This document shows positions 15,071-51,192 of a stretch of 64,000 nt of DNA, piece after piece (within the stretch, counting starts at the first letter, position 1; every line of letters starts with the position of its first letter). Both the position numbers and the translations under genes were made by a program. This DNA is from Actinoplanes sp. L3-i22 (GTDB lineage: Bacteria; Actinomycetota; Actinomycetes; Mycobacteriales; Micromonosporaceae), in contig NZ_AP024745.1 of the NCBI RefSeq assembly GCF_019704555.1, forward strand, positions 504,501 to 568,500, in the 5' to 3' direction. The notes under the pieces were generated by a model. That model was not told the DNA's origin. It worked only from the letters and a program-made list of their open reading frames with translations, and did not search any database.

Positions 15071-16232
15071 CGTGTTCCGGCTCGGGGTGGTAGGTCTGCG
15101 GACCCGGAAACTACGGGCCGCGCTCTCCGCTGTGGGCATCGCGATCGGCATCGCGACGATGCTCGTGGTGACCGGGATCCCGGCGTCCAGCCGGCAGGCG
15201 GTGGCGGACCGGCTCGCCGCGCTCGGCACGAACCTGCTGCGGGTCCAGCCGGAGAGCGCGGGCGACCAGCCGGCGCCGCTGCCGGCCGAGTCGGTGGCGA
15301 TGGCCGCGCGGATCGGCCCGGTCACCGGGGTCAGCGCGGTCGCCAACGTGCACGCCGTGGTCCGCCGGTCCGACCTGGTCGACCCGTTCGACGGATCCGG
15401 CCTGACCGTGCTGGCCAGCCGGACCGACCTGCTCGCCGCGGTGAACGGGCGGATGCGATCCGGCGGGTTCCTGACGACGGCGACATCGCGCTTCCCGGCC
15501 GTCGTACTGGGCGCCACCGCGGCGACCCGGCTCGGCCTGCTCGAGATCCGGCCGGACCGGCCCGCGCCGCAGGTCAGCATCGGCAACCGCTGGTTCACGG
15601 TGACCGGCATCCTGTCGCCGGTGCCGCTGGCGCCCGACCTCGACCAGTCGGTGCTGGTCGGCTGGGAGGTGGCCGCCCGGTTGCTCGGCTTCGACGGCCA
15701 TCCGACGGTCATCTACGTCCGCTGCCGGGAGTCGGCGATCGAGCAGGTCCGCGCGGTGCTGCCGACCACGGTCAGCCCACAGTTGCCCGGCCTGGTCCGG
15801 GTCTCCCGCCCGTCCGACGCCCTGGCCGCCAAACGAGCCGCCGACAGCGCCTTCGGCGCCCTGCTGCTCGGCCTGGCCGGCGTATCACTCCTGGTCGGCG
15901 GCGTAGGCGTCGCCAACACCATGGTCATCTCAGTCCTCGAACGCCGCCGCGAGATCGGCCTGCGCCGCGCCCTGGGCGCCCCCCGCTCCCACATCCGCCT
16001 CCAGTTCCTGGCCGAATCGGTGATCCTGTCCGCCCTGGGCGGCACCACAGGCACCACGATCGGCACAGCCAGCACCATCGCCTACGCGACTTGGCAGCGC
16101 TGGCCTCCGGTAATCCCACCCACCGCCATCGCCGCGGGCCTGTGCGGCTCCCTACTGGTCGGAGCAATAGCCGGCGTCTACCCAGCCATGCGAGCCGCCC
16201 GCCTAACCCCAACCTCAGCCCTCGCCGCCTAA
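15057..16232 (+). CDS. ABC transporter permease (MacB/FtsX type)
   Basis: This encodes 391 residues. It has one N-terminal TM (about 22-42), a large extracytoplasmic MacB_PCD-like domain and three C-terminal TM segments (about 275-300, 325-350, 360-380) containing the FtsX motif [20 protein letters not shown] and [13 protein letters not shown]. With the adaptor, ATPase and lipoprotein it forms an exporter of unknown substrate, perhaps a peptide or macrolide. I chose the ATG at 15057 ([10 protein letters not shown]), preceded by GGGGATGGGCGG; three in-frame upstream ATGs arise from tandem repeats. Confidence 0.9.
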
Positions 16233-16824
16233 CCCCAAGCAGCCACGCCGCCCACGCCACGCCGCCCACGCCACGCCGCCCACGCCACGCCGCCCACGCC
16301 CCGGCGGCTCCGCCCACGCCCGGCGGCCTGGCGCCCCCGGCCCAGCCGGCCCCAGCGGCCCGGTCTCGCCGCAGCAGCTCGGCGCCGGCCCAGCGGTCCG
16401 CCGGCGCCCCCAACGCCCATCAGCGGCAGCCGGTCCAGCCGGCCCGGCGGCCCAGCCGGGCCGCCGCGGACTCGGCGCGCCCAACGGCCCAGCTGCGCCC
16501 CAGCGAGTGGCCCGGCCGGGCCACCCAGCGCGTTGCGACCCGGCCGGGCCGCCCAAACGGGCAGCGGCTCAGCTGCGTCCCAGCGCGCATTGGCCCGGCC
16601 GCGCACCCCGGACTCTGGCCGCGCGTCCCGGTGGCTCTGGGGCGCTGTCGGGGCCGCTGCGGCGGGCTTGAAGGGCCGGTCCGGGCTTGTGCTGGGCCGG
16701 TCGGCGTTTCAGGCCGCGTGTTACTAGCCTTGCGCGACTGCTTGCCTTGCGACCGCTTGCCTTGCGACTGCTTGCCTTGCGCGGCTGCTTGCCTCGCCTC
16801 GCGCGGCTGCTTGCTTTGCGTGGG
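16233..16824. other. Low-complexity intergenic region
   Basis: About 590 bases without a convincing gene. Long open frames exist on both strands, but they reflect extreme GC content and short-period repeats (proline/arginine/glycine-rich nonsense). It contains a 14-bp tandem array at its left and a 15-bp array at its right, described separately, with CCGGCC-rich irregular repeats between them. Confidence 0.7.
16242..16300. repeat. 14-bp tandem repeat array
   Basis: The unit GCCACGCCGCCCAC occurs four times without change (16242-16297) plus a 3-base partial unit. It begins 10 bp after the permease stop codon. Confidence 0.9.
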
Positions 16825-16825
16825 T
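16727..16825. repeat. 15-17 bp degenerate tandem repeats (CTTGCCTTGCGACTG)
   Basis: Five to six units of CTTGCCTTGCG followed by ACTG, ACCG or CGGCTG run up to the stop codon of the minus-strand gene 16825-18036, so they form the start of its 3' untranslated region. No hairpin is obvious. Confidence 0.75.
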
Positions 16826-18036
16826 TACTTGCAGTGCCAGAGGACGGGCTGGATCGCTGTGCTGGCGTCGTTGGACTGGCCGCCGATGGTTTGGCCGTTG
16901 TCGCTGATGGTATTGGCGATGTCGGCCAAGCCGTCCTGCGGGTTCGGCGGGGCCAGGCCCGGGAGCGGGACCAGGGTGTTGCCGGCCAGGAGTGTGGCGC
17001 CGCCCTGCTTGCTGATGCCGGTCAGCCAGCCCTGGGCGTTCAGCGCGTCGGCGCTCTTGTCGAGCTGGTCGATGAGCTCGGACTTGCCGGTGCGCAGGTT
17101 CCACCGGACGGCGTGGACCTCGCCCTGCGCCCGCTTCAAACCGGCCGCCTTGCCGGAGCCGGCCTCGTTGACCACGCCGGTCACCCAGTCGCCGCGGATG
17201 TGGAACAGGCGGCCCTCGACCTGCTTGCCGCCGCCCAGGTCGGGCAGGTCCAGCGCGTGGTGGGAGCCGTCCGGCAGCCACACGTAGGGCACCTTGTTGT
17301 CGAGCGTGCCGATCACGGTGCCGTCCTCGGCGATGTCCACCGCTGTCCCGGTCTGGCTGCCCTCGGGCATCGGCAGGCGGCGCGGGGTCGCGGTCTTCGA
17401 CGTCCAGAGCAGCGGGTAGGCGCCGTCATCTCCGACGATCGCGCCCTTGTTGTTGATCGCGGCGGTCGCCGCGCTCCCGGTGCCGGGGAGCTTGGTGACC
17501 TTGCCGTCGCTGTACACATAGGGCATCGAGGTGCCTTCCCCGATGAGGCTCCAGCCGACCGCGGTGCCGGTCGAGTTGACGTCGGTCAGCGACTCCTCGA
17601 GATCTCCGGGGAGCGGCACCTCCACGCTGACCCCGTCGTGCCACATGATCGCCTGGTATCCGCCGGCTTTCGGGTAGGACCGGCCGACGAAATACTTCCC
17701 CGTGGGGTCGCCGCTGGCGACCAGCGCCTGCAGGGCGCCATGCGGCACCGGCAGGGCCTCGATCGTGCAGCTCGTCGGGGCCTTCACCGCCGGGGCCGCC
17801 TTGGTCGCCGCTGTTTTGGACGCGGCCGGCTGGGTCGGTGTCGTGGCGCGCGACGTGTCGAACAGCAGGCCGCCGGCGACGACGGCGGTGACGGTCAGGG
17901 TGGCGGCTCCGGCGTAACCGGCGGTGCGGATCGCCCGTTTGCGGCGCGCGGTGGCGATCGCCAGCTGGATGTCCACGGACGAGGGGGAGCGGGGCTCGGT
18001 GTCGAGCGGTCGCAGCAGATCGAAGTCGGATGGCAT
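16825..18036 (-). CDS. Membrane-anchored beta-propeller-like protein, partner of SigE-type sigma factor
   Basis: This encodes 403 residues. A cytoplasmic N-terminus of about 38 residues (MPSDFDLLRPLDTEPRSPS, then basic ARRKRA) precedes one TM segment (about 39-60). The extracytoplasmic body repeats a motif of the type DxNxxGxAVGW, INNKGAIVGD, IAEDGTVIGT and ISDNGQTIGGQ, like HAF-type propeller repeats. The gene starts 9 bp after the sigma factor gene on the same strand. The topology resembles that of anti-sigma factors, but I see no zinc-binding anti-sigma motif, so a regulatory role is only suggested by coupling. Confidence 0.78.
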   Translation of the reverse strand: MPSDFDLLRPLDTEPRSPSSVDIQLAIATARRKRAIRTAGYAGAATLTVTAVVAGGLLFDTSRATTPTQPAASKTAATKAAPAVKAPTSCTIEALPVPHGALQALVASGDPTGKYFVGRSYPKAGGYQAIMWHDGVSVEVPLPGDLEESLTDVNSTGTAVGWSLIGEGTSMPYVYSDGKVTKLPGTGSAATAAINNKGAIVGDDGAYPLLWTSKTATPRRLPMPEGSQTGTAVDIAEDGTVIGTLDNKVPYVWLPDGSHHALDLPDLGGGKQVEGRLFHIRGDWVTGVVNEAGSGKAAGLKRAQGEVHAVRWNLRTGKSELIDQLDKSADALNAQGWLTGISKQGGATLLAGNTLVPLPGLAPPNPQDGLADIANTISDNGQTIGGQSNDASTAIQPVLWHCK

Positions 18037-24004: not shown

Positions 24005-24063
24005 GATCCATTGCACGCATTTTGCGCGAGGCGGCTCTTGGAGGCTCGTGTCCGCGCAGGTCA
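24005..24063. repeat. Diverged copy of the element's right-end sequence outside attL
   Basis: GATCCATTGCACGCATTTTG (24006-24025) is also found at about 37854-37873, 34 bp after the integrase stop. The following GCGGCT..GGAGGC and GCAGGTCA also have counterparts before the right repeat (up to 37956). The left copy is shorter. It lies outside the 67-bp direct repeat, where original chromosomal sequence would be expected, so it may be the scar of an earlier related element. Confidence 0.6.
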
Positions 24064-24064
24064 A

Positions 24065-24131
24065 CGGACGTTTCTGGTGATCGATAGAGTGCCCCCGGCA
24101 GGAATCGAACCTGCGACCTGCGGTTTAGGAA
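24065..24131. other. Left attachment site with 3' tRNA-Arg fragment
   Basis: It is identical to 37957-38023. Bases 24090-24131 are the 3' part of tRNA-Arg (discriminator base through the anticodon loop, minus strand) without the 5' half, so no tRNA can be made here. This is the displaced original tRNA end created by integration. Confidence 0.92.
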
Positions 24132-24456: not shown

Positions 24457-24481
24457 GCCGGCACTGACCGCCAGTGCCGGC
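24457..24481. terminator. 10-bp perfect hairpin in the AICE left end
   Basis: GCCGGCACTG (24457-24466) pairs exactly with CAGTGCCGGC (24472-24481) around a 5-nt loop. It would insulate the cargo gene at 24606 from chromosomal read-through. Confidence 0.5.
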
Positions 24482-24592: not shown

Positions 24593-24598
24593 TAAACT
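24593..24598 (+). promoter_or_regulatory. -10 box of leaderless promoter for the repeat protein gene
   Basis: TAAACT ends 7 nt before the GTG at 24606, the leaderless spacing also seen at 3173 and 7717. No clear -35 box is visible. Confidence 0.5.
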
Positions 24599-24605
24599 TG
24601 GGCGC

Positions 24606-25685
24606 GTGATCACTGAGGATGAAATCCTTTTAGATCGGTCCCGCCTCGGCACCGCTGACTTCGGCTTCACCAAGAGCCTGGAGTTCGGCCTCACGGAGAG
24701 CCTGAAGCTCGGCCTCGCCGGCACCCTTACCGCCGCTGACTTCGGCTTCACCAAGAGCCTGGAGTTCGGCCTCACGGAGAGCCTGAAGCTCGGCCTCGCC
24801 GGCACCCTTACCGCCGCTGACTTCGGCTTCACCAAGAGCCTGGAGTTCGGCCTCACGGAGAGCCTGAAGCTCGGCCTCGCCGGCACCCTTACCGCCGCTG
24901 ACTTCGGCTTCACCAAGAGCCTGGAGTTCGGCCTCACGGAGAGCCTGAAGCTCGGCCTCGCCGGCACCCTTACCGCCGCTGACTTCGGCTTCACCAAGAG
25001 CCTGGAGTTCGGCCTCACGGAGAGCCTGAAGCTCGGCCTCGCCGGCACCCTTACCGCCGCTGACTTCGGCTTCACCAAGAGCCTGGAGTTCGGCCTCACG
25101 GAGAGCCTGAAGCTCGGCCTCGCCGGCACCCTTACCGCCGCTGACTTCGGCTTCACCAAGAGCCTGGAGTTCGGCCTCACGGAGAGCCTGAAGCTCGGCC
25201 TCGCCGGCACCCTTACCGCCGCTGACTTCGGCTTCACCAAGAGCCTGGAGTTCGGCCTCACGGAGAGCCTGAAGCTCGGCCTCGCCGGCACCCTTACCGC
25301 CGCTGACTTCGGCTTCACCAAGGACCTGGAGTTCGGCCTCACCGACACCCTCATCGCCGGCGTTTTCCCAACCAGCATCGACCGACTCGTTGCTCAAGTC
25401 GACCTAGTCTTGAGCAACCCATTTGAGGGTGTCCCGCAACAGCTCCAAGATCCCGGCCTCCTCGCGATCTGGCGAGAGACTGCCTCCCAGATTCACGACT
25501 GGGCTGCTCAGCCGCGGGTGAAGGTTCTTGGATCTATAGGCATGTGGGTCGTGCTGTCCGTGTGGTGGATGAACTTAAAGGTCTACCGGCCCGACGTAGC
25601 CGACTTGCTAGAGATCCCATTCAGTTTCCTGGTTGCACTGGTCCAGGCGCTCATTTTTCTGGACGTAACCAGAAAGCGACGCTGA
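24606..25685 (+). CDS. Tandem-repeat protein with two C-terminal membrane segments, unknown family
   Basis: This encodes 359 residues from GTG (MITEDEILLDRS). From about residue 17 it has eight identical 27-residue repeats plus a diverged ninth. Each repeat is three octads of the form FGFTKSLE, FGLTESLK, LGLAGTLT plus three residues, giving an amphipathic pattern. A unique region (about 240-310, FPTSIDRLVAQVDLVLSNP) leads to two hydrophobic segments (VLGSIGMWVVLSVWWM and FLVALVQALIFLDV) and RKRR. The plus frame is real because nearly all third positions are G or C. I recognise no family. It lies tail to tail with the HEPN/DUF262 pair. Confidence 0.75.
   Translation: MITEDEILLDRSRLGTADFGFTKSLEFGLTESLKLGLAGTLTAADFGFTKSLEFGLTESLKLGLAGTLTAADFGFTKSLEFGLTESLKLGLAGTLTAADFGFTKSLEFGLTESLKLGLAGTLTAADFGFTKSLEFGLTESLKLGLAGTLTAADFGFTKSLEFGLTESLKLGLAGTLTAADFGFTKSLEFGLTESLKLGLAGTLTAADFGFTKSLEFGLTESLKLGLAGTLTAADFGFTKDLEFGLTDTLIAGVFPTSIDRLVAQVDLVLSNPFEGVPQQLQDPGLLAIWRETASQIHDWAAQPRVKVLGSIGMWVVLSVWWMNLKVYRPDVADLLEIPFSFLVALVQALIFLDVTRKRR
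24654..25301 (+). repeat. Eight perfect 81-bp tandem repeats (nested 24-bp sub-repeats)
   Basis: GCTGAC recurs every 81 bp from 24654 to 25302. The eight full units read as identical, and the ninth (25302 onward) diverges after its first 20 bases. Each unit contains three related 24-bp segments (starting TTCGGCTTCACC, TTCGGCCTCACG, CTCGGCCTCGCC) plus 9 bp, so the array probably grew in two steps. Lack of synonymous change implies recent expansion or homogenisation. Confidence 0.93.
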
Positions 25686-25870: not shown

Positions 25871-26587
25871 TTAAGGTCCGGATGAGACTAAGTACATCTG
25901 CTGATCTAAATAACTTGTCCAGCAATCCACCAAGTGAAGTGCGAATTCCGTAACGTCGTCGACGTACCGCTCGACATCAGCGGAATTCATCCCGGCAGAC
26001 TGAAAAACTTGATGAAAGGGAATATTGCCATGCGCCAGATCGTTACGCACGCCACCCAGCTTTCGCATCGACGCGTCCCAGCGAGCGTAGGGGAAGGCGG
26101 TGCCCGGAAGGCCATACACATCCCAAATTCGCGCGTACAGCTGCGGGTTGGGCGTTTTTCCGTCCATTGGAGGTTGCGCCGACTTTGTGATAATCGGTAG
26201 CTTCAATGACAGGCCGCTAAGATCTAGAGTCGTTGCCTCAGCTCTTCGCGGCCATACTTTTGTGGCATCGCTCAAATCGCGTAGGCTTTCGAATGCCTCA
26301 TGTGCTGCGAGCTGTCGCAAGCACGGTATGAGATCCTTAATTTGATGGTTACCGTTTAGTTCTTTATGTGTTTCTCGAATCAAATATTTGGTAAGCGACT
26401 CCAATTCCGCCACCGTATAAATGACCGCACTGGCGCGGGCCTCCAAAGTCGCAAAATTCCACCGTCTTGGGTCTTGCCTACTCAAAGACAGGGCCGCCAG
26501 CAGATACGTCTTTAAAGAGTCAGTTCGCTTCAATAGACGGTCGGCTTCGCCGAGAATAGAGGAGACTAAGAAATCATGCGCGCCCAC
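25871..26587 (-). CDS. HEPN-domain protein (putative ribonuclease) paired with DUF262 protein
   Basis: This encodes 238 residues from GTG. The HEPN motif R-x4-H is R181-H186 in GVRNDLAHGNIPF, within a mostly helical protein (SAVIYTVAELESLTKYLIRETHKEL; YVDDVTEFALHLVDCW). The overall look is that of the MAE_28990-type HEPN family, whose members are known or predicted RNases in toxin or defence operons. The start lies inside the DUF262 gene (14-bp overlap), so it is made after and probably with it. Codon usage is clearly lower in GC than the backbone, a sign of recent transfer. Confidence 0.78.
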   Translation of the reverse strand: MGAHDFLVSSILGEADRLLKRTDSLKTYLLAALSLSRQDPRRWNFATLEARASAVIYTVAELESLTKYLIRETHKELNGNHQIKDLIPCLRQLAAHEAFESLRDLSDATKVWPRRAEATTLDLSGLSLKLPIITKSAQPPMDGKTPNPQLYARIWDVYGLPGTAFPYARWDASMRKLGGVRNDLAHGNIPFHQVFQSAGMNSADVERYVDDVTEFALHLVDCWTSYLDQQMYLVSSGP

Positions 26588-27632
26588 TGAAGAGCACCTT
26601 CGCTCGATTAATGCGCGCTTCCAGCTTTGTGCGGGTATTGCTACCGCCTGTGCTTGCCGTCACGAGCGCCGCATCGTCTTGCCAGCCCGATGGCGGGATG
26701 GTTACATCAACTCCGTCTGTGAGCAATTCAGCGATACCTACCAAGCATGCCTCTAGCTGAACAAGCGGAGTAACCGCCGTTGCTGTTCGCAGTAGCGGGC
26801 CGCCCCCTGTCGCCTCCAGAAGAGATGATACCGAGCGGCTGTATAGTTCTATGTCAACCTCGACACTTTCCGAACCCTGCACCGACTCCATGTAATCGTT
26901 AAGGAATTTCTTGACACGCCCATCAAATTTATCGCGGGCATTCTTGTAAGCGAAGAATTTGAGTACCTGCTCGGCAGCGGTTCCGTCATTCTGTCTGGCT
27001 TGCTGCAGCTTAAGCAGATCCTGCAGATCCCCACTTGCCAACTCTTCAAGGAGTCGGTTGAATTCTCCCCGATAGATGCAGGCGCGCACCTCTTGTGGTG
27101 AAAGTGCAATCGAGCCGGCATTCAGCCGCTCAAACAAATCGAAGCGAACTTCTTTACTGCTTTTATCCGTCAGGGATATTACCTGCAGTGGCTGTCGACC
27201 GAAGTATCTCTGTAGCGGCACCGGGAGGTCATCGTATCCGACCCCGTTAAGTTGGGTAAGTTTTTGCAGCCTCGTAAGCTTCAGCGCTTTGCTGCGATTT
27301 ACCGCCTTTAGGCCATCGGGACCTTCCGCAATAAAGTACAGAAGTGTTGAAAGTCGCTGAAGGCCATCAACAACCTCCCATTGAAAGCCGGCATTAGTAG
27401 CCACAAAGATAGGAGGGATCGGCAACCCTAGAAAAACGGATTCGATGAAAGTTGAGCTAACTTCATCGTCCCATCGGTACTTGCGTTGATACTCAGGCGT
27501 GATGCTGAGTTCGCCGTCGGCTAGCATTCGCACCAACTCACGGACCGAAAAGTCATGGCTCGCCACGTCAACTTTTTTGCGTTCTTCTCCTAGCTGATCT
27601 TCGAGCGAGCTGAGTTCTGAAGCAACTGTCAT
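26574..27632 (-). CDS. DUF262 (GmrSD N-terminal/ParB-like) domain protein
   Basis: This encodes 352 residues. The DUF262 signatures are YQRKYRW (48-54), FIESVFLGLPIPPIFV (62-77) and VVDGLQRLSTL (87-97, equivalent to DGQQR). The domain relates to ParB/Srx nucleotide-binding folds and forms the N-terminal half of GmrSD-type modification-dependent restriction enzymes. There is no C-terminal DUF1524 HNH (HxxP) motif, so nuclease activity may come from the partner HEPN protein. I chose the ATG at 27632; an upstream in-frame start would add 18 residues without a better site. Low-GC codons mark it as acquired. Confidence 0.82.
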   Translation of the reverse strand: MTVASELSSLEDQLGEERKKVDVASHDFSVRELVRMLADGELSITPEYQRKYRWDDEVSSTFIESVFLGLPIPPIFVATNAGFQWEVVDGLQRLSTLLYFIAEGPDGLKAVNRSKALKLTRLQKLTQLNGVGYDDLPVPLQRYFGRQPLQVISLTDKSSKEVRFDLFERLNAGSIALSPQEVRACIYRGEFNRLLEELASGDLQDLLKLQQARQNDGTAAEQVLKFFAYKNARDKFDGRVKKFLNDYMESVQGSESVEVDIELYSRSVSSLLEATGGGPLLRTATAVTPLVQLEACLVGIAELLTDGVDVTIPPSGWQDDAALVTASTGGSNTRTKLEARINRAKVLFSGRA

Positions 27633-27734
27633 ACTGGTCAGCCTACGCAATTCGCTAGCCCAAGCACAGTCACTCCGCCCTTTCACTTACGCGGCCAAGC
27701 TGGGCTGCAGCGGGTACTGAAGCTTTGCTTGACC

Positions 27735-32280: not shown

Positions 32281-32592
32281 ATGCCCAAGCTATCCGACGC
32301 TGCCCGCATCACCACCAAAGACAACACCATTTGGCGTACGTGCACCGGCTGCGACCTGCTCAAATCTCTCCCGCTCGACGTCGACCGGTGCGCCGCCTGC
32401 GCCGACCCGGACGCCCGCCTCGCACTCAACCGCTACGCGCTGGACGCCTGGGACAAGCTGTACCGCTACGCCTCGCTCGTCGGCCGCATCGAGGCATGGG
32501 CGCTGCTCATCCCCGACGTCAGCGACGCCGAACGCCTCGACCACATCCGCCAGGCACTGACCGCCGACGCCCCGGGCAAGGCGGCGGACTGA
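32281..32592 (+). CDS. Small zinc-finger-like AICE protein
   Basis: This encodes 103 residues, with a strong AAAGAGGAGAGGG ribosome binding site. The N-terminal half holds two CxxC pairs (CTGC at about 21-24 and CAAC at about 38-41), a probable zinc ribbon. The C-terminal half is helical. Its stop overlaps the translocase start (TGATG), so it is co-translated with the transfer gene. Confidence 0.72.
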   Translation: MPKLSDAARITTKDNTIWRTCTGCDLLKSLPLDVDRCAACADPDARLALNRYALDAWDKLYRYASLVGRIEAWALLIPDVSDAERLDHIRQALTADAPGKAAD

Positions 32593-33992
32593 TGCCACTA
32601 ATCAACGTCATCAAGGGCGACCCGATCCCCGTCGCACCGCTCAACGTCCGCACCCCGTTCGTCAAGATCCCGCTCTGGGCAGCGATCCTCTGGCAGACCC
32701 TCAAGACTGTCGCTTGGCTGGTCAAGGCCTACGTCCAGCACTGGTACGCCACCCTCCCGGTCACCGGCTTGGTCTGGCTTTACCTCGCCTACGGTTGGCA
32801 GGCCCTCGCCTTGCTACTCGGCGGTATCACGACCGCCGTGACCTGCTGGTTTCACGTGAATCGGGCGTCATGGCTGCGGTTCGGCTGGTGGCCGGCACTG
32901 GCCCGGTTCCGCAGGCTGGTCTACCGGCGGCGGTGGATGGCCGCGATGGTCACCGCGAACCTGTCGATCTCCTACGACAAACGCACGATCATCCCCCAGA
33001 TCCGCCGCGTCCGGTGCAAGGCCGGCGGCTGCGACGAGGTGCTGGTCCGGATGGTGACCGGGCAGATCCCTGACGACTTCGCCAAAGCGTCCGAGCGGCT
33101 GGCGCAGACCTTCGGGGTCCGGCAGGTCAAGGCCATCCCCGGCCCGACCTACGGCGCCGTGGTCCTGGTCCTCATGCGCGGCGACACCCTGCAAGAAACA
33201 GTGGAGCCGTTCCCGATCCCGTTCGCGCCGGACTTCACGGCCCTGCCGATCGGTGTCCAGGAAGACGGCGGCCTCTACCGGCTGCGGTTGTTCGGCACCC
33301 AGGTCCTGATCGTCGGCGCTACTGGCTCGGGCAAAGGCTCGGCCATCTGGTCGATCGTCCGGTCTCTGGCCGGCGGGGTCGCCTCGGGGCTGGTCGAGCT
33401 GTGGGGCCTGGATCCCAAGGGCGGCATGGAGCTAGGGATCGGCAGGGCGCTGTTCGCGAAGTTCGCCTCCCGGGACTTCGCCGAGATGGCCGCCATGCTC
33501 GAACACGCGGCGGCCACCGCCCAGGGACGGGCCGCCCGGCTCGCCGGCAAGACGCGCCAGCACACACCGACCGAAGATGAGCCGCTGATCGTCCTCGTCA
33601 TCGACGAACTGGCAAACCTGACCGCCTACCTGACCGAACGCCAGCTCAAGGACCGGATCAAGGCCGCGCTCGGCATCGTCCTCACGCAAGGTCGAGCCGT
33701 CGGCGTCCACGTCGTCGCCGCGATCCAGGACCCCCGCAAAGAGGTCCTTCCGGCCCGCGGGCTGTTCCCGACCCGGATCGGGCTGCGGCTGTCCGAGCCG
33801 TCAGAGGTCGACCTGGTGCTCGGCGACAACATGCGCGACCGCGGAGCCCTGTGCGACCGGATCCCGCAGACCCAGCCCGGCATCGGCTTCGTCGTCCTGG
33901 AGGGCGACCCGACCCCGATGCGGGTCCGGCTGACCTATTGCGACGACACCACCGTCCGCGACATGGCCGACGACTACGGGGTTGCCGCGTGA
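32592..33992 (+). CDS. FtsK/SpoIIIE-type conjugal DNA translocase (TraB/TraSA-like)
   Basis: This encodes 466 residues. Two N-terminal TM segments (about 45-65, 68-90) anchor it in the membrane. The ATPase has Walker A GATGSGKGS (about 242-250) and Walker B LIVLVIDELANL (about 334-345). In actinomycete elements this single protein moves double-stranded DNA between mycelial cells. It is in a tightly coupled run with the DUF2637 and Rep genes (4-bp overlaps). Confidence 0.9.
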   Translation: MPLINVIKGDPIPVAPLNVRTPFVKIPLWAAILWQTLKTVAWLVKAYVQHWYATLPVTGLVWLYLAYGWQALALLLGGITTAVTCWFHVNRASWLRFGWWPALARFRRLVYRRRWMAAMVTANLSISYDKRTIIPQIRRVRCKAGGCDEVLVRMVTGQIPDDFAKASERLAQTFGVRQVKAIPGPTYGAVVLVLMRGDTLQETVEPFPIPFAPDFTALPIGVQEDGGLYRLRLFGTQVLIVGATGSGKGSAIWSIVRSLAGGVASGLVELWGLDPKGGMELGIGRALFAKFASRDFAEMAAMLEHAAATAQGRAARLAGKTRQHTPTEDEPLIVLVIDELANLTAYLTERQLKDRIKAALGIVLTQGRAVGVHVVAAIQDPRKEVLPARGLFPTRIGLRLSEPSEVDLVLGDNMRDRGALCDRIPQTQPGIGFVVLEGDPTPMRVRLTYCDDTTVRDMADDYGVAA

Positions 33993-36251: not shown

Positions 36252-36440
36252 GTGGCGGACGACGACCTGATGACGGTTCTTGAGGTGCTCGACGTCTTGA
36301 AGGGAGTGTCGCGGCGGACCTTCTACCGCTGGCGCGAGCTCGGCAACGCCCCAACCTGCATCCGCCTGCCCAACGGTGAACTTCGGATCGTTCGCAGCGA
36401 TCTCCGCGAATGGCTCAACCGGCACCGGGAGGCGGCGTGA
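36252..36440 (+). CDS. xis: Excisionase (MerR-like helix-turn-helix)
   Basis: This encodes 62 residues from GTG; a TTG two codons upstream is an alternative. The sequence LMTVLEVLDVLKGVSRRTFYRWRELGNAPTCIRL...RSDLREWL is the classic excisionase/helix-turn-helix 17 pattern. AGGAGGGGG lies upstream. It overlaps the integrase start by 3 bp, so the two are coupled, as in pSAM2. Confidence 0.88.
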   Translation: MADDDLMTVLEVLDVLKGVSRRTFYRWRELGNAPTCIRLPNGELRIVRSDLREWLNRHREAA

Positions 36441-37819
36441 AGTCCCAGGAAGTCCGCATCCGGTCCATCCAAATCAACAAGCTTGCCAACCGCCGGAAGT
36501 CGTACACGGTGCGGTGGTTGCTGGCCGGCAAGCCGGAGTCGAAGACGTTCACAACCCGGGCGCTGGCCGATAGCTACCGGTCCGACCTGATGCAGGCCAT
36601 CAACCGCGGCGAGGCGTTCGACACCGACTCCGGTCTTCCCGAGTCGATGATGCCGACTCCAGTGGGCGTCAGTTGGCTGGCTTTCGTCCGGCGTTACCTC
36701 GACATGAAGTGGCCGGATGCCGCCGCGAAATCACGGGAGAGCCTGACCGACGCACTGGCCACGGTCACGCCCGCGCTCGTTGCGGACGTTCCCGGCCGGC
36801 CGGACGCCGAGCTGCTGCGGCGGGCTCTCCGCGGTTTTGAACTTGTTCCGGCAACTCGTGAGGCGCCGCGACCTGCTGATGTCGCTAAGGCTCTGCAGTG
36901 GCTGGAGCGGGCGTCGCTTCCTCTGGCTGACCTGGCTCAAGCGTCGGTCATCCGCCCGGCGCTCAACGCGCTGACTGTGCGGCTCGATGGCCGAAGCGCT
37001 GCGGCCACCACGAGCCGGCGCAAGCGCGCGGTCTTCTACAACGTTCTTCAGTACGCGGTCGAGCTGGAACTCCTCGCGTTCAATCCGGTAGACCAACTGC
37101 GGGTGCGCTCTAACCGAAGCAAGGTCTCCGTCCAGGTCGACCGGCGCGTGGTCGTCAACCCCGCGCAGGCACGTGAGCTGCTGACCGCCGTGACCTACGT
37201 CGGCACGCGTGGCAAGGACGGCTGGCGTGGGGAGCGGCTTCGGGCGTTCTTCGCCTGCATGTACTTCGCGGGGCTCCGGCCGGGTGAGGCCACCGACCTG
37301 CGCCGAAGCAACTGCAAGCTTCCGGCAACCGGCTGGGGGACTCTGACCGTAGAGCGCTCGCGGCCGGCGGTGGGCAAGCGCTACACCGATAGCGGCGAGG
37401 TCCACGACGACCGCGGGCTCAAGCATCGAGGTCAGGCAGAGGCGCGGGAGGTGCCCATTCCGCCCGAGTTGGTCACGATGCTGCGCGAGCACCTGGAGCG
37501 CTTCGGCTCCGACGAAACGGGTCGGCTGTTCCGGAGCACGCGTGGGGGAGTGGTCTCGTCCTCGTCGTACGCCCGCGTCTGGGAGCTTGCCCGCGCGGTT
37601 GCGCTCCCGCCGGACCGGGTCGGCACGCCGCTGGCCGGCCGCCCTTACGATCTGCGGCACGCCGGGGTTTCGCTGTGGCTCAACGCGGGGGTACCCGCCA
37701 CCGACGTGGCCGACCGCGCCGGCCACTCCGTGGACGTCTTGCTCAAGGTCTACGCCAAGTGTCTCGACGGTGATCGGGAGCGATTCAACTCCCGGATCGA
37801 GGCTGCACTCAGTGACTGA
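36437..37819 (+). CDS. int: Tyrosine site-specific integrase
   Basis: This encodes 460 residues from GTG. The catalytic domain shows the first arginine in YFAGLRPGEATDL (about 280), the LRHAGVSLWL box (about 405-415), GHSVDVLLKVYAK with the nucleophile tyrosine (about 438). The N-terminal arm-binding and core-binding domains precede it. It is the last gene before the att site and tRNA-Arg and therefore acts on that site. Confidence 0.93.
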   Translation: MKSQEVRIRSIQINKLANRRKSYTVRWLLAGKPESKTFTTRALADSYRSDLMQAINRGEAFDTDSGLPESMMPTPVGVSWLAFVRRYLDMKWPDAAAKSRESLTDALATVTPALVADVPGRPDAELLRRALRGFELVPATREAPRPADVAKALQWLERASLPLADLAQASVIRPALNALTVRLDGRSAAATTSRRKRAVFYNVLQYAVELELLAFNPVDQLRVRSNRSKVSVQVDRRVVVNPAQARELLTAVTYVGTRGKDGWRGERLRAFFACMYFAGLRPGEATDLRRSNCKLPATGWGTLTVERSRPAVGKRYTDSGEVHDDRGLKHRGQAEAREVPIPPELVTMLREHLERFGSDETGRLFRSTRGGVVSSSSYARVWELARAVALPPDRVGTPLAGRPYDLRHAGVSLWLNAGVPATDVADRAGHSVDVLLKVYAKCLDGDRERFNSRIEAALSD

Positions 37820-37956
37820 AATCGGGGGATTGACCTGCGGAAACAACCCCAAGATCCATTGCACGCATTTTGCACGACTGGCGACAAACGGCGGCTTCCG
37901 GAGGCCTACGGCTGCACACGGTGACACATCGGCGATCTTGAGTCCGTGCAGGTCAG

Positions 37957-38023
37957 CGGACGTTTCTGGTGATCGATAGAGTGCCCCCGGCAGGAATCGA
38001 ACCTGCGACCTGCGGTTTAGGAA
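37957..38023. other. Right attachment site in tRNA-Arg
   Basis: It is identical to 24065-24131. The repeat covers the 3' half of the intact tRNA and about 25 bp downstream. One mismatch farther out (37956 g against 24064 a), GCAGGTCA matches again. The tRNA remains whole because the element re-creates its 3' half. Confidence 0.92.
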
Positions 38024-38054
38024 ACCGTCGCTCTATCCCCTGAGCTACGAGGGC
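37982..38054 (-). tRNA. tRNA-Arg (anticodon CCU)
   Basis: A 73-nt cloverleaf reads on the minus strand: acceptor GCCCTCG with CGGGGGC, D-arm GCTC/GAGC, anticodon loop TTCCTAA (anticodon CCT in DNA), T-arm GCAGG-TTCGAAT-CCTGC, discriminator A and no encoded CCA. One mismatch (A-C) closes the top of the anticodon stem. The 3' half is the attachment site of the AICE. Confidence 0.93.
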
Positions 38055-50115: not shown

Positions 50116-51192
50116 TCAGTGGTTGGGGCGAGGCCCGCCACCGCCGGGGCCACCGTTGCTCGGGCCGCCACCGCCGGGGCCGCCACCGCTCGGGCCGCCA
50201 CCGCCGGGGCCGCCACCGCTCGGGCCGCCACCGCCGGGGCCGCCACCGCTCGGGCCGCCGCCGCTGGGGCCGCCGCCGCTGGGGCCGCCGCCGCTGGGGC
50301 CGCCGCCGCTGGGGCCGCCGCCGCTGGGGCCGCCGCCGCTGGGGCCGCCGCCGCTGGGGCCGCCGCCGCTGGGGCCGCCGCCGCTGGGCCCGCCACCGCT
50401 GGGGCCGCCGTTGCTCGGCCCGCCACCGCTCGGTCCGCCGCTGCTCGGTCCGCCGTGTCCGCCCGGCCCGCCGTTGCTCGGGCCGCCGCCACTGGGCCCG
50501 CCGTTGCTCGGGCCGCCACCGCTAGGGCCGCCGTTGCTGGGGCCTCCACCGCTGGGCCCGCCGTTGCTGGGCCCGCCGCCGCTGGGCCCACCGTTGCTCG
50601 GCCCGCCGCCGCTAGGCCCGCCGTGGCTCGGTCCGCCGCCACTGGGTCCGCCGTTGCTCGGCCCGCCACCGCTAGGTCCGCCGTGGCTCGGTCCACCGCC
50701 ACCGGGCCCACCATTGCTCGGCCCGCCATGCCCACCCGGCCCACCGTTGCTGGGCCGGCCCGGCCCGTCGGACCCCGGGTGATCCGGCCGCCCCGGCCCA
50801 GGCCGTCCCGCGCCGGGCCACTGCGGCCGGTTCGGCCACCCAGCCGGCCACTGCCCCGGCCGCCACCGGTTGTCCCACCGGTTGTTCCAGTCGTTCTGGT
50901 CGACGATCAGCGCCCACGCCCCGCGCCGGAACCCCCAGCGAACCTTCTCGCAGTCGTGGTCGTCCCAGGCCCGAAATCGCTCCCCGACCAGTCCGGCCCG
51001 CTGGCAGGACCAGAAGTCGCGGTAATAGCCGACGACCTCGTCGTCGTCCCACGGGTTCCGCTGCTGCTGGGCGGCGGTGCCGCTGCCGGAGTGGCCACCG
51101 GCCGGTGCCGCTTGGGCGGGTGCGGCGGCAGCCGTCATCCCGGCCAGCACGCCGAAGCCGGCCAGCGCCATCAGGCGCATGGTCCTTTGCAT
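50116..51192 (-). CDS. Secreted protein with long Gly-Pro-Ser repeat tail
   Basis: This encodes 358 residues from ATG 51192 (AAGGGA 7 nt upstream; ATG 51198 is an alternative). A signal peptide ends near residue 28. A folded region (about 45-110, NPWDDDEVVGYYRDFWSCQRAGLVGERF; DDHDCEKVRWGFRRGAW) has two cysteines. The rest is proline/tryptophan-rich and then a repeat of GGPSGGGPSNGG type to the C-terminus. No sorting signal is visible. It may be a wall or extracellular matrix protein. Confidence 0.75.
   Translation of the reverse strand: MQRTMRLMALAGFGVLAGMTAAAAPAQAAPAGGHSGSGTAAQQQRNPWDDDEVVGYYRDFWSCQRAGLVGERFRAWDDHDCEKVRWGFRRGAWALIVDQNDWNNRWDNRWRPGQWPAGWPNRPQWPGAGRPGPGRPDHPGSDGPGRPSNGGPGGHGGPSNGGPGGGGPSHGGPSGGGPSNGGPSGGGPSHGGPSGGGPSNGGPSGGGPSNGGPSGGGPSNGGPSGGGPSNGGPSGGGPSNGGPGGHGGPSSGGPSGGGPSNGGPSGGGPSGGGPSGGGPSGGGPSGGGPSGGGPSGGGPSGGGPSGGGPSGGGPSGGGPGGGGPSGGGPGGGGPSGGGPGGGGPSNGGPGGGGPRPNH
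50123..50745. repeat. 15/30-bp degenerate tandem repeat encoding Gly-Gly-Pro-Ser
   Basis: A 15-bp unit of type GCCGCCGCTGGGGCC repeats about 40 times. Nine or so central units (50260-50390) are identical, while outer units vary (CCGTTGCTCGG, CCACCGCTAGG). Open frames in several other phases here are artefacts of this periodicity. Confidence 0.9.

Follow-up and report, generated by a model that had tools for sequence, protein, structure and literature searches.

A gene of Actinoplanes sp. L3-i22 belongs to a protein family that is real, rare and apparently undescribed. The C-terminal domain of these proteins is conserved, whereas the tandem-repeat array preceding it is homogenised within each gene and differs rapidly between genes. 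The family is found mostly with integrative elements of Micromonosporaceae. The window, i.e. the whole analysed stretch of DNA, comprises 64,000 bp (positions 504,501 to 568,500 of contig NZ_AP024745.1, assembly GCF_019704555.1), and coordinates given without a contig or locus name refer to it. The gene and its parts are as follows.

24593..24598, + strand: TAAACT, a possible −10 element for a leaderless start at 24606 (sequence reading)
24606..25685, + strand: gene of the new family, GTG to TGA, 359 codons, start codon unproven
24657..25304, + strand: eight identical 81-bp (27-codon) repeats (TRF and base comparison)
25305..25358, + strand: ninth repeat, partial and diverging, at the junction to the C-terminal domain (base comparison)
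25359..25682, + strand: conserved C-terminal domain (homologue and profile searches)
25524..25577, + strand: membrane segment 1 (hydropathy and alignment)
25578..25613, + strand: short conserved loop (KVYRPDVADLLE), predicted to lie outside, the side being inferred from charges
25614..25661, + strand: membrane segment 2 (hydropathy and alignment)

The initial annotation had described eight identical 81-bp repeats composed of 24-bp units, followed by two membrane segments, and all of these were recovered. Copies 1–8 differ at 0 of 648 bases and are in frame within the 359-codon gene; TRF reports a single 81-bp array at 24652–25342 (8.5 copies, 99% match, score 1368) with a 24-bp sub-period, and hydropathy analysis finds two hydrophobic stretches at the C-terminus. 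The GC content of the gene by codon position, 0.61/0.44/0.84, is a coding pattern. TAAACT, located 7 nt upstream of the GTG codon, would fit a leaderless start; a search for a sigma-70-type site gave no match, and alternative in-frame starts are present upstream of the GTG at 24474, 24552 and 24561. The source assembly is one 12.0-Mb contig, and the genome contains one copy of the family gene. Elsewhere in the window, TRF reports a 36-copy array of a 15-bp unit with 80% match (50135–50683) and a cluster of short tandem repeats with several periods of 14–28 bp (16194–16924).

The full-length window protein retrieved no relatives from the protein database, the genomes, or the plasmid and phage records. 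The domain is hidden from such full-length searches because it is masked by the repeats; the C-terminal region of the window protein also had no match in the protein database. With the last 114 residues as a query, 233 of 354 genomes of the same family (Micromonosporaceae) matched at E≤1, and eight loci in 7 of the 354 genomes were retained: the window, two copies in Micromonospora zingiberis (G318, contigs C29 and C39), and one each in G252, M. endophytica (G194), G179, G094 and G101. Outside the window, single-sequence matches with this query reached 2e-12. Profile searches A1 and A3 were built with member sequences, and hence their E-values are not independent. An independent test is provided by leave-one-out profiles, which found all eight members again, each as the sole match among 2256 background frames, with E-values from 1.7e-14 (G101) to 6.6e-46 (G252) and 2.1e-17 for the window sequence. 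In the single-sequence search G101 (0.0045) ranks below the discarded G056 (0.0040); it was kept for its repeat array and its leave-one-out value of 1.7e-14. Loci L008, L010, L011, L012, L014, L016 and L019 were rejected given that their translations are unrelated or unrelated-looking, and the remaining weak matches were dropped on score.

No further members emerged when profiles were run against 397 genomes sampled across the order and 394 sampled across the class. The profile searches scored approximately 11–12 first-look candidates per genome, and therefore distant members may have been missed. Several matches were rejected: the transporter-like proteins of G379, G396 and G557 among six matching genomes in the order-level search; four among the eleven in the family-level search, namely G173, G335 and G364 as unrelated proteins and G059 on its score of 22 bits; and G379, G949, G967 and G1003 among the five matching genomes in a later search. 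Three scans of viral contigs were negative for the family, and two queries yielded no match in plasmid and phage records. When a Micromonospora member was used as the query, the protein database gave two matches, both labelled partial, one being a G318 copy and the other from M. chersina. Contigs end within the arrays or at the gene itself (L022:1, L023:1, L027:18950), truncating the gene in G094 and in both of its G318 occurrences; short-read assemblies will therefore undercount the family.

In 27 of 28 pairwise comparisons of the domain, the third codon position carries the most differences (the exception is G252–G101), and L, P, P and A at positions 55, 73, 99 and 102 of G252 are invariant in A3. 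These data bear on the possibility of a chance reading frame or an assembly artefact. High-GC DNA does leave long frames open on the opposite strand here too (380 and 255 aa), but the third-position excess in the domain, the leave-one-out profiles and the recurrence of the same architecture in independent assemblies make this explanation extremely improbable, even if the array may not have precisely the assembled number of copies. A lack of homologues with a conserved C-terminal region, which the initial annotation had named as the sign of a chance ORF, does not apply, because such homologues exist.

A tandem array precedes the domain in seven of the eight loci, always in frame; the eighth, G094, is cut at the contig end. 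Across the seven loci the units are 81, 99, 87, 99, 90 (2 × 45), 75 and 87 bp long, with 99–100% match and 1.8 to 8.5 copies, so that both the copy number and the unit itself vary between homologues. All unit lengths are multiples of three (25–33 residues). Full copies within one array differ by 0–3 bases, and copies at the domain edge diverge. A homogenised interior with divergent edge copies is what slippage or unequal crossing-over typically leaves behind, and such events may well have shaped these arrays. Between members, the units differ far more than the domain does. The G252 unit aligns with the units of G318:C29, G194 and M. chersina (none of 300 shuffles aligned as well), and this kinship was detected only within one genus, Micromonospora. 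For the window, G101 and G179 (which belongs to the same genus as G252), no unit with kinship to theirs was found. The octads of the FGLTESLK type noted earlier are present in the window copy, but other members have different units of 25–33 residues; a repeat motif common to all members was looked for and not found. It is therefore the C-terminal domain, and not the octads, that defines the family.

The unit and the domain were compared by codon position in one pair, G252 and G318:C29. Over the 33 codons of the unit the differences are distributed 11/11/11 (dN 0.42, dS 0.51), and over 130 codons of the domain, 29/26/65 (dN 0.24, dS 1.33). For this one pair, with its 33-codon unit, the data fit relaxed or diversifying selection on the unit and constraint on the domain. 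They would also fit passive repeats, in which a selfish or neutral array has expanded ahead of a small membrane protein able to work by itself; the units vary from member to member, and in this pair no constraint by codon position is seen in them. We consider such passive expansion quite unlikely, as arrays recur in seven of the eight loci, always in frame, and some kinship of units is retained within Micromonospora. Two other readings of the units were rejected. The sequence GACCCGGA, the TraB recognition repeat, does not occur in the array, which removes a DNA role of this kind; five such repeats lie elsewhere in the element on one strand. An amphipathic arrangement of the units was mostly no better than in shuffled sequences.

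The charge pattern around the membrane segments is shared by all members. At all eight loci 2–3 basic residues are found in the 15 positions before segment 1 and 2–4 in the tail after segment 2, and the 12-residue loop between the segments is neutral to acidic. According to the positive-inside rule, basic flanks mark the cytosolic side. Both ends of the protein, and hence the repeat arm, are therefore predicted to be cytosolic, with a hairpin in the membrane and the short loop outside. The window protein has the three traits of the family: a conserved C-terminal domain, an in-frame array, and two membrane segments with basic ends and a neutral to acidic loop.

Periscope proteins carry surface-exposed repeats, a secretion signal and a cell-wall anchor. 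As described in the available parts of PMC8201768 and PMC9704523, they resemble the family in having near-identical tandem repeats of variable number on an anchored protein, and their length can vary by recombination. They differ in being cell-surface proteins, whereas the arm of the family is internal as judged by its charges, a hairpin of two segments serves as anchor, and elements carry the gene among their cargo. The likeness could point to a role in cell structure or host physiology and not in conflict, with repeat number setting how far a membrane-tethered arm extends; perfect in-frame repeats, variable copy number and a conserved anchor are all as in the periscope proteins. The rarity and patchiness of the family (7 of 354 genomes), an arm predicted to lie inside and not on the surface, and known settings in mobile-element cargo speak against such a role, and we regard it as unlikely.

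The statement of the initial annotation that no such family is known holds for the databases searched. The C-terminal domain gave no convincing match in Pfam, NCBIfam, PHROGs or the PDB sequences, and neither did the full proteins in PADLOC, where the best match of the window protein was Cas7_IIId at 0.0074, with no stretch passing on its own. Matches of the full protein to Pfam Colipase_C (7e-9), NCBIfam PRK11027 (1e-5) and a PDB chalcone reductase (0.0016) are located in the repeat region and were taken as chance: no stretch passes on its own for Colipase_C or PRK11027, and the domain alone has none of the three matches. AlphaFold models of the window protein and a Micromonospora member are poor (mean pLDDT 54.7 and 55.7) and were given no weight; they disagree on the repeats, with strands in the former and helices in the latter, and agree on a helical C-terminal part. 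The structure-based search suggested earlier, with these two models against the PDB and one of them against viral models, returned no fold match at E≤1e-3. Among titles and beginnings of abstracts in the literature, no description of such a family was found.

The gene was said to lie between attL and a DUF262–HEPN pair in the cargo zone of an AICE, and this placement is borne out by the att repeats, the integrase, the transfer gene and both Pfam matches. The relevant features are as follows.

24045..24131, strand not assigned: left att copy, 3' part of tRNA-Arg (direct repeat)
25871..26587, − strand: HEPN_RiboL-PSP neighbour gene (PF18735, 5e-8)
26574..27686, − strand: GmrSD_N/DUF262 neighbour gene (PF03235, 8.9e-27; PADLOC NsnA, 2.9e-56, and PD-T4-2_A, 2e-43)
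32592..33992, + strand: FtsK-like transfer gene of the element (PF01580, 6.2e-6, at 33195–33437)
36437..37819, + strand: integrase of the element (PF00589, 5.5e-6, 28.8 bits against a cut-off of 27.1, at 37166–37759)
37937..38023, strand not assigned: right att copy (direct repeat), overlapping the complete tRNA-Arg(CCT) gene (37981–38054, − strand)

The element is 13.9 kb long and bounded by an 87-bp direct repeat, 95% identical. The family gene begins 475 bp inside the left att copy and adjoins the end of the element opposite the integrase. The HEPN_RiboL-PSP and GmrSD_N genes (25871–27686) overlap by 14 bp. This pair lies beside the window gene and was not seen at the other family loci; hence a functional pairing, for which a co-occurrence check had been proposed, was dropped. 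The same genome shows signs of a second AICE outside the window (G000:C1:1345299–1350201), namely another transfer gene, 52% identical, and an integrase located 3 kb downstream of it.

Six of the eight loci lie in or beside genes or remnants of integrative elements. In G252 the element is located at tRNA-Phe and has a second att copy (L054:17784–17848), an integrase (4.6e-24) and FtsK. Its cargo (L024:7138–11714) is ordered as PycC (2.9e-83), PycTM (2.4e-32), the family gene, RmrT (1.8e-47) and RmrA (1.7e-139), so that the family gene is flanked by Pycsar and RmrAT in one AICE cargo zone. G179 has the same tRNA-Phe site, where 64-bp repeats enclose the family gene, an integrase reduced to its C-terminal half (1.2e-13) and some small ORFs. 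At G101 (L028:6700–9938), close to tRNA-Ser, the family gene is accompanied by part of an integrase (PF00589, 2.4e-14), by a CyanoTRADDas_TM protein and by a DUF6414 gene; no second att copy was found there, and its neighbourhood is a candidate conflict-gene neighbourhood only. The G094 contig carries an integrase and FtsK, and the G318:C29 contig, GntR and FtsK. In the window, G252, G179 and G101, the family gene occupies the cargo zone, with the integrase at the other end.

The available text of PMC9513070 reports that AICE cargo decays often, leaving partial integrases and cargo between repeats. The setting of the family is the same and G179 shows the same decay, with a partial integrase and cargo between direct repeats, whereas the account of AICE cargo in that text describes no tandem-repeat membrane protein. 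Such carriage might point to an element-service protein, Spd-like and membrane-bound, that would assist intramycelial spread, mating or establishment and use its repeats as a spacer or scaffold; weak conservation of spread proteins is reported in the available part of PMC3364876. We think it improbable, because the gene lies in the cargo zone opposite the integrase, away from the transfer genes (the same four loci), and most AICE-bearing genomes lack it: a transfer gene was found at E≤1e-40 in 55 of 111 genomes, and the family gene in 7 of 354.

Neighbours were scanned with PADLOC at five of the eight loci. A recognised system adjoins the family gene at two loci of the eight (the window and G252), and no match was obtained for the neighbours scanned in G101 (two proteins), G094 (two) and G194 (one). 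As a control, eight sibling elements were taken via the transfer gene, and att sites could be defined for four. These four lack the family gene; 26 cargo ORFs were listed in them, and two overlapping subsets of 10 ORFs each were searched, one with PADLOC and the other with Pfam. Conflict-type genes were found in three (Mrr_cat with YaaC; GmrSD_N; a methyltransferase together with a PD-T4-6-like kinase), while the ORFs scanned in the fourth yielded none. Sibling AICEs (L088, L091, L092, L093) exchange differing conflict genes between att and the GntR/HAD genes. The cargo zone as a whole is defence-rich, and the neighbourhood does not single out the family gene, because siblings without it carry conflict genes in three of four cases.

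PycTM, the Pycsar effector (PF18967), is like the family in having a small two-segment membrane domain, and the two genes are adjacent in G252. To our knowledge, PycTM has no repeat array. No profile similarity connects them, and G252 has its own PycTM beside PycC; a PycC cyclase next to the family gene was found only there, with none at the window or among the other neighbours inspected. The CyanoTRADDas_TM and DUF6082 proteins are likewise membrane proteins of the same or sibling elements, with a conflict role proposed or none assigned, and have no profile similarity to the family either.

The most plausible explanation, which we hold tentatively and at somewhat less than an even chance, is that tRNA-integrated conjugative elements (AICEs) of Micromonosporaceae carry this undescribed family in their cargo and that it acts as a single-gene conflict protein in phage defence or exclusion of rival elements. 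It is supported by the conflict genes in the same cargo zone at the window and in G252 (Pycsar, RmrAT), with G101 as a candidate only. In G179 the gene is accompanied between the att repeats only by small ORFs and an integrase fragment, and therefore no partner gene seems to be needed. Against it we count the conflict genes in three of four siblings without the gene, PADLOC neighbours in two of eight loci, the lack of profile likeness to known membrane effectors, a selection contrast from one pair and 33 codons, the absence of a significant amphipathic pattern, and the disagreement of the two structure models.

In such a conflict protein the repeat arm would be the fast-changing module, which multimerises or binds a component of the intruder, and the membrane hairpin would be the effector, altering the membrane upon engagement or clustering of the arm. 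Slippage or unequal crossing-over would alter the length of the arm and leave the frame intact. A more specific version, possible but doubtful, is a new kind of element-borne conflict protein: a hairpin effector with a self-homogenising, rapidly rewritten cytosolic arm. Copy number would determine the length of this arm, and recognition or threshold would be tuned by recombination instead of point mutation.

The family is readily missed by annotation and assembly, with genes cut at contig ends and database proteins labelled partial. What makes it interesting is its architecture and the ease with which it escapes notice, the mechanism being only proposed. If the conflict reading is true, these elements would carry a gene for defence or exclusion in which repeat turnover drives the evolution of the variable part.
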